Shown: piece after piece, positions 1,771 to 59,994 of the stretch | Layout of the letters: each line of letters begins with the position of its first letter | How positions within the stretch are numbered: the first letter of the stretch is position 1 | Origin: Pseudomonadota bacterium | GTDB lineage: Bacteria; Pseudomonadota; Gammaproteobacteria; Burkholderiales; Gallionellaceae | Reading direction: 5' to 3' | Length of the DNA stretch: 64,000 bases | Assembly (NCBI GenBank): GCA_021848465.1 | Contig: JAJZUP010000001.1 | Location: 868,001-932,000, forward strand | The notes under the pieces: generated by a model | What the model saw: only the letters and a program-made list of their open reading frames with translations | The model's database searches: none | What the model was told of the DNA's origin: nothing | Made by a program: the position numbers and the translations under genes

Positions 1771-2356
1771 AAAAGCAAAACCGTTGGGACCCGACAGAAA
1801 CCGCGGGGAGCGGCCCCGCACGCCGATTACTTTCTTTGTGCGGCCAAAGAAAGTAATCAAAGAAATGCCGCCCCGGTTCACCGCCGCTGCGCGGTTCCCT
1901 GCGTTGCTCATCTGGTCAGGCGGCTGCGGAACTCGCGCTTCGCGCTCAGACAGTCCTCGCCGACCACCCCTGACCAGCCTGCGCTACTCGGCGGTTCACA
2001 GGGGAGACAAAATCAAACTCGGGTTTGTGTGCGCTTTGCGCACGATTTTCTTCTGGGTGTTGGCGAGGCGGGCGTTGCCCACCTCGCTGGTTTCGGGTTT
2101 CCGGTTTTGATTTTTCTTCCCCTGTGCGCCGCCTCGGTCAGGCGCGAACGGGCGGTGCAGTTAGGCGAGCACTGTTTGAGCACGTGGCCGCGTAGCGGAT
2201 CGTGCGAGTTGCGCAGCCCCGCTCGTTTGTGACTGATCGAGGGAACCCACGCAGTGGGCGGCAAACCGGGGTCGCCTTCTTCTTGGCTACTTCTTCTTGG
2301 CGAAGCAAGAAGAAGTAGCTGGCTGTCGGGCCACCCCCGACGGTTTTGGTTTTTTA
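1771..2356. repeat. Large non-coding foldback (imperfect inverted-repeat) element
   Basis: Left end AAAACCGTTGGGACCCGACAG matches the reverse complement of the right end (AAAACCGTCGGGGGTGGCCCGACAG). Sub-terminal hairpins on each side (ttactttctttgtgcggccaaagaaagtaa; ctacttcttcttggcgaagcaagaagaagtag). Inner arms CCCGGTTCACCGCC..GGTTCCCT..CTGCGGAACTCGC versus CCCGGTTTGCCGCC..GGGTTCCCT..CTGCGCAACTCGC; innermost arms CACAGGGGAGACAAAATCAAA / CACAGGGGAAGAAAAATCAAAA. Confidence 0.75.
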
Positions 2357-13059: not shown

Positions 13060-13136
<77 letters not shown>

Positions 13137-59918: not shown

Positions 59919-59994
59919 TGGTGGGTCGGGCGAGATTCGAACTCGCGACCAACGGATTAAAAGTCCGCTGCTCTACCGACTGAGCTACCGACCC
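59919..59994 (-). tRNA. tRNA-Lys (anticodon TTT), CCA encoded
   Basis: Reverse complement GGGTCGGTAGCTCAGTCGGTAGAGCAGCGGACTTTTAATCCGTTGGTCGCGAGTTCGAATCTCGCCCGACCCACCA folds as a cloverleaf. Confidence 0.97.

Follow-up and report, generated by a model that had tools for sequence, protein, structure and literature searches.

A gene-less palindromic element in a Gallionellaceae genome, probably one of a family of small, gene-carrying, non-autonomous mobile elements

The window, which is the whole stretch of 64,000 nucleotides that was analysed, originates from a Pseudomonadota bacterium of the Gallionellaceae (assembly GCA_021848465.1, contig JAJZUP010000001.1, positions 868,001 to 932,000 of the forward strand). 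At its arnT-aroC site it contains a gene-less palindromic element of 565 bp, located at approximately 1780-2344 and followed on either side by a few AT-rich bases; these ends are set by copies found elsewhere. An earlier note on this DNA had described a foldback element at 1771-2356, of which the foldback was confirmed and the outer bounds proved slightly too wide. Each of the repeats listed there was found, the arms pair in order, and its view that the ORFs of this region do not encode known proteins agrees with the lack of a convincing coding gene within the window copy. In its short length and in being without a transposase, the window copy is MITE-like. Three distinct REP-like palindromes are present around the element (1677-1706, 1726-1753, and 2365-2396), and the two tRNA genes of the window, at 13060-13133 (+) and 59922-59994 (-), are both ordinary. 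The features are as follows, with the basis of the assignment in brackets where one applies.

1726-1753, no strand: REP-like repeat CCGTTCGTGGTGAGCTTGTCGAACCATG in the flank, not part of the element (sequence)
1771-1788 and 2336-2353: terminal arms (repeat check)
1780-2344, no strand: whole gene-less element, the putative mobile unit, with ACCGTCGGGGG-like terminal inverted repeats, the left end being partly degenerate (alignment to L018 and of further copy pairs within single genomes, in which identity ends here)
1780-2004, plus strand: left arm (arm profile and alignment)
1780-1797, plus strand: left terminal hairpin h1, degenerate in the window copy (ACCGTTGGGACCCGACAG; family consensus ACCGTCGGGGGTNGCCCGACAG) (sequence)
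1801-1821, plus strand: additional GC hairpin CCGCGGGGAGCGGCCCCGCAC, in one arm type only (sequence and arm alignments)
1825-1858, plus strand: hairpin h2 (GATTACTTTCTTTG/CAAAGAAAGTAATC) with a 14-bp perfect stem (repeat check)
1862-2004, plus strand: structured left-arm domain, P1-P5, with AACTCGC..TCAGACAGTCCTCGCC apex (covariation on alignment A2)
1864-1885 and 2257-2278: CCGGTT/CCGCC blocks (repeat check)
1922-1936 and 2204-2218: CTGCG-AACTCGC block (repeat check)
1990-2022 and 2101-2133: CACAGGGG-AAAATCAAA block (repeat check)
2029-2043, no strand: central hairpin GTGCGCTTTGCGCAC
2063-2087, no strand: central hairpin GCGAGGCGGGCGTTGCCCACCTCGC with one mismatch, having a counterpart in L018 and many gene-less copies (sequence)
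2119-2344, minus strand: right arm, inverted (arm profile and alignment)
2119-2281, minus strand: structured right-arm domain of the alternative stem type
2286-2319, minus strand: hairpin h2 of the right arm with a 14-bp perfect stem (repeat check)
2323-2344, minus strand: right terminal hairpin h1 (CTGTCGGGCCACCCCCGACGGT)
2365-2396, no strand: REP-like repeat of the GTAG type, GGTGCAATGCC..GCGCCCTACG, in the flank and not part of the element, also adjoining L018, L055, and L081 (sequence)

Folded as RNA, the 586 nucleotides of the plus strand reach -329.8 kcal/mol, compared with -240.5 +/- 5.5 kcal/mol for 100 dinucleotide shuffles (z -16.1); for the minus strand, z is -12.8, and no shuffle reached so low a value on either strand. 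Since a long inverted repeat necessarily folds well, strong folding by itself tells little about function, and it is the comparative evidence that bears the argument. The structured domain of a single arm folds only moderately better than its shuffles (median z -1.7); thus, most of the z of -16 of the whole element is supplied by arm-to-arm pairing.

Arms from 40 loci of related genomes can be aligned across about 230 bp. From the outside inwards, an arm consists of an AT-rich edge (TTCAAAaCCAA), the terminal hairpin h1 (ACCGTCGGG-N5-CCCGACAG), the hairpin h2 (e.g., TTACTTTCTTTTGCTTCGCCAAAAGAAAGTAA), in which the stem sequence varies while the pairing is kept, and a closed domain with an outer stem CCCC..GCGCCGCC/GGCGGCGC..GGGG, a long variable stem, and the conserved apex AACTCGC..TCAGACAGTCCTCGCC. 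Across copies, the terminal inverted repeat ACCGTCGGGGG is found at both ends, as is typical of MITEs. RNAalifold, run over all arms jointly, returned just 15 pairs owing to misalignment of the alternative stem types, and one stem type was therefore aligned separately. In the 30 arms of this type, 93.7% of the cells of the hand-drawn structure are paired, and double-sided changes are found at 15 pairs, compared with 7.2 +/- 1.6 in shuffled and 1-5 in slid controls. On the evidence of these alignments, each single arm has a conserved predicted structure with compensatory changes; for the hairpins, templated repair of imperfect palindromes can be another source of such changes. Within an element, the left and right arms are no close copies of one another: they mostly belong to different types and share, family-wide, a mean identity of 74%, while arms at different loci of one genome are 80% identical. 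Between the arms of gene-less copies lie about 75-225 bp, in most cases including one or two GC-rich hairpins, with at least two perfect central hairpins in 25 of the 41 gene-less copies. The h2 hairpin of L061 and L074 holds a 40-bp insert (TTTTGGCTCCGACTAACCTAAAGGTAAGTC), to which a 60-bp hairpin insert at another place in L074 is related; this is perhaps a smaller nested repeat. A Variovorax element (L165, 1935-2745) is a nearly perfect foldback of 811 nucleotides (-653 kcal/mol) with further REP-like repeats nested centrally.

The assembly of the window's genome (G000) comprises 2.43 Mb and is 86% complete; that of G003 is likewise incomplete, and most of the genomes compared are drafts. 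G000 contains, in addition to the window element, a second gene-less copy (C2:120852-121430), two loci with arms around one gene of about 0.75 kb, and one lone arm. Of 41 relatives, 19 have arms; in the related genus g2, arms are present in 30 of 34 genomes, including all 21 of good quality. With a strict filter, which makes the count a lower bound, they were detected in at least 13 of 399 genomes of the phylum, so that several further families within the order and the class have them. When these distant arms were used as BLAST queries, named records were matched from Variovorax paradoxus, Aeromonas caviae, Pasteurella multocida, and Pseudoalteromonas piscicida, in some cases over the h2 region only. 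The window element had no match among plasmid and phage records, and the distant arms matched just a few large replicons deposited as plasmids; carriage by plasmids or phages was rejected on these grounds. In total, 80 inverted arm pairs were catalogued, 41 of them gene-less and 39 with cargo, the second batch having been picked partly for cargo; the first, unselected batch (n = 38) comprised 26 gene-less and 12 cargo-bearing pairs.

The gene-bearing copies usually enclose one gene of about 145-380 codons. A passenger gene inside inverted repeats, the arrangement of a mobile insertion cassette (MIC), is a property of 39 of the 80 family pairs and not of the window copy, which is probably an empty platform rather than a gene or an RNA gene. 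The two cargo genes of G000 encode a 258-amino acid TIR/nucleoside-deoxyribosyltransferase-like protein (Pfam PF05014 below cut-off; PADLOC TIR effector, E 1.7e-9) and a 248-amino acid RES-domain protein (PF08808, E 8.6e-15). Families recognised among the cargo are RES, TIR/NDT, 8xMP, DUF4236, RelA_SpoT, HEPN_RiboL-PSP, DUF2441, DUF4238, BRCT, and KilA-N; by PADLOC, the RelA/SpoT-like cargo is assigned to PDC-S33 (E 3e-104) and the KilA-N cargo to BstA (E 1.5e-19). Many cargo proteins are orphans without a Pfam family, and no transposase or recombinase is recognisable in the 39 cargo regions. The cargo looks like an accessory gene pool that is partly anti-phage or toxin-like. In two species, arms at the polA site are adjoined by what, from our reading of the sequence, are presumably HigBA-like toxin-antitoxin genes (L145, L147), and annotated HigB and regulator genes adjoin the Variovorax element L165.

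The elements are intergenic and placed near gene ends, divergent neighbour genes being found at only 3 of 45. A REP-like motif adjoins an end in 63 of the 80 elements and is rare at a distance of 500 bp, though much of the DNA there is coding. The copies are dispersed and have sharp ends, which again is MITE-like. In G015, near-identical gene-less copies occupy two loci with unrelated flanks, the identity starting at ACCGTCGGGGG and stopping at its mirror; the same abrupt ends are seen in G024 and in the pair formed by the window element and L018 in G000. The RES-cargo element of G000 is 75% identical from end to end to one in another genus without any homology of the flanks, and L186 and L205 are likewise alike over the whole element and not beyond. 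At the lnt site, the element is absent in four species, while four other species contain four different cargo genes; the empty lnt sites also lack the neighbouring repeats, so that the junction there is not base-resolved. The polA site contains gene-less elements or differing genes, depending on the species. No target-site duplication was detected, the mean direct repeat being 0.33 nt compared with 0.61 nt with ends shuffled (64 elements); in this point the elements depart from MITEs. The site adjacent to aroC is occupied by gene-less elements in at least seven species of g2. There, the arms have a median identity of 0.73-0.75 and resemble each other no more than do arms drawn from other sites and genomes, although the adjacent gene is 73-88% identical. 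Vertical inheritance of arms at one site is ruled out by this finding; a given site has either had more than one occupation or had its arms replaced.

At some sites, a short footprint is found in place of the element. At the L061 site of G442, the sequence ACCGTCGGGGGTTGCCCGACGGT represents both outer ends joined. The corresponding 23-bp palindrome, ACCGYCGG..CCGRCGGT, has 20 exact matches in 15 of the 151 family genomes, distributed over three genera, while a reversed-pattern control has none in the same 151 genomes. The scan returned no footprint in genus g8, of which two members were found to be arm-free; in genus g12, most footprints have a paired variant (ACCGCCGG..CCGGCGGT) that resembles the element ends in g12. 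Ten footprints of g2 were examined, and every one of them has a flank, on one side or both, that matches a locus occupied by an element or an arm in other species. Among these loci are the L061 site, the L204 site, the arnT-aroC site of the window, for which the footprint is in G461, and the L059/L172 site, where two species have two different cargo genes and a third has the footprint. In the G448 footprint (L216, G448:C32:107680), the left flank of one element site is joined to the aroC side of another, which suggests a chromosomal rearrangement between element sites.

By comparison of these loci it is shown that units reach new loci with constant ends, that sites acquire, lose, and exchange cassettes, and that the structure of the arms is conserved. 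The window element is probably a gene-less representative of a family of small mobile elements that are non-autonomous, can carry genes, and are served by a putative trans-acting recombinase. Between two inverted arms of about 230 bp, these elements have only one or two short hairpins or else cargo, usually a single gene. The recombinase supplied in trans would recognise the hairpin ends in their folded form, probably in single-stranded DNA; loss of the element would leave the 23-bp palindromic footprint, and the same sites would be refilled by other cassettes. The earlier note's proposal of a mobile element of the MITE/foldback type is supported by the copies, the sharp ends, the unoccupied orthologous sites that exist in some relatives, and the footprints, but is incomplete: target-site duplication, a defining feature of MITEs, is absent, and the gene-cassette form and the conserved structure of each single arm had been missed. 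Neither a single copy nor folding like that of controls, which the note had named as evidence against itself, was observed, and the similar intergenic sequence it had suspected in other proteobacteria does exist in the other families and named records mentioned above.

A rather unlikely alternative is that the family spread once in the past, that cargo is now exchanged by homologous recombination or gene conversion acting on the arms and on the conserved genes beside them, and that the footprints arise by slippage deletion between the CCCGAC repeats at the base of a long palindrome, with no active recombinase involved. The footprint exactly matches the expected deletion product between two 6-bp CCCGAC repeats, so that enzyme-driven excision and slipped mispairing both account for it. 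Long palindromes are unstable in bacteria, which would favour slippage; arm identity is higher within one genome (0.80) than between species at a shared site (0.78), as gene conversion predicts; and the G448 footprint combines the flanks of two element sites. However, insertion at new sites is required by the whole copies that one genome has, nearly identical, at new loci, and by the sharp-ended gene-bearing copies that are found in different genera without flank homology. The same footprint is, moreover, present at a site where relatives have gene-bearing elements of about 1-1.4 kb (L221 versus L059 and L172).

With its hairpin termini arranged as inverted pairs, its frequent REP-like neighbours, and its intergenic position at gene tails, the element could also be taken for an oversized REPIN/BIME, in which an inverted pair of REP hairpins is moved by a REP-associated tyrosine transposase (RAYT). 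This is improbable, as the terminal hairpin was never found free in the ten genomes searched, occurring at element ends only. There is no Y1_Tnp match in the arm-bearing genomes G000 (86% complete) and G003 (incomplete), several Y1_Tnp-positive genomes are without arms, and no correlation is seen across 41 genomes. A RAYT/REPIN origin was rejected because of the end hairpin and the missing correlation.

It is very unlikely that the element is a cis-acting structured RNA, such as an attenuator or two-way terminator, that is kept for regulation and carries cargo only incidentally. The compensatory changes within the arms, the scarcity of elements between divergent genes, and the proximity of an element to aroC in many species would be in accordance with such a role; against it stand the mirroring of the structure on both strands, the arms at a single site in seven species being no closer than random arms, the footprints, and the exchange of cargo. 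Rfam yielded no match at the gathering threshold and chance-level matches only below it, and a described Rfam RNA was rejected, no family having been matched. Least credible of all is an integron-type cassette with arms acting as attC-like sites for IntI: single orphan-type cargo genes and folded sites would fit, and G000 as well as several relatives contain an integron integrase (intact in G000, G000:C2:35769-36710; TIGR02249, 495.8 bits), but neither arm nor cargo relatives are located around IntI of G000 and G435, the arms form inverted pairs at dispersed single sites instead of tandem arrays, the arm-rich genomes G023, G462, and G464 have no IntI above cut-off, and some arm-free genomes have one, so that this origin was rejected for want of arms near IntI and of any correlation.

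For the reading as recombinase-served mobile elements, a more specific version can be put forward tentatively, namely, that of a distinct cassette-exchange system of Beta- and Gammaproteobacteria, in which the putative recombinase would cut and join folded palindromic ends of 23-29 bp, the 23-bp footprint would serve for landing, and chromosomal sites would repeatedly be refilled with single accessory genes, often for defence. The search for the mobilising enzyme returned none; neither RAYT (Y1_Tnp) nor integron integrase tracks the elements. A 344-amino acid phage-type tyrosine integrase ends about 50 bp from an element in L069 (2250-3284, -) and L198 (41-1075, +); the two proteins are very similar and come from two genera, and the enzyme is possibly a candidate mobiliser or just another gene-end site.

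If this interpretation is true, the family would represent a widespread vehicle on chromosomes by which single accessory genes, anti-phage candidates among them, are carried without a transposase, and which has so far apparently been taken for spurious small ORFs or junk palindromes. With the arms as a sequence handle, the genes enclosed at these sites would become a list of defence and toxin candidates, and the footprints would allow gain and loss to be counted. The question posed is that of the enzyme for hairpin-ended cassettes that make no target duplication.

No description of the family was found in the open-licence literature, and it is seemingly undescribed. It is placed under the MITEs and mobile insertion cassettes in the broad sense, from which it is set apart by the failed target-duplication test and by having no known parent insertion sequence. 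Bacterial MITEs are short, without transposase, intergenic, and strongly folding, with terminal inverted repeats and several copies (PMC10969869); all of this is shared by the present element, which differs in making no target-site duplication, in that no cognate IS was recognised in the 39 cargo regions, in its multi-stem arms of about 230 bp, and in the many gene-bearing copies. The intergenic repeats of Pseudomonas fluorescens, such as R0, R2, and R200 (up to about 350 bp; PMC2718517), are alike in their intergenic position at gene tails and in the inverted repeats that several of their families have; going by their description, they differ from the present family in being without described cargo and in having shorter inverted repeats (11-43 bp). 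With REPINs/BIMEs and their RAYTs (PMC3116915, PMC2817692), the element shares inverted hairpins and an intergenic position among REP-like repeats, while it is about five times longer, its end hairpin is not free, and its presence is uncorrelated with the Y1 transposase. Integron cassettes resemble it in their folded recombination sites and their single-gene orphan, toxin-like, and defence-like cargo; its dispersed inverted pairs form no array and have no link to IntI. In MICs, inverted repeats surround a passenger gene in place of a transposase. This arrangement is common to both, and what distinguishes the present family from them are the long structured arms, the common gene-less form, the cargo swaps at fixed sites, and the palindromic footprint.
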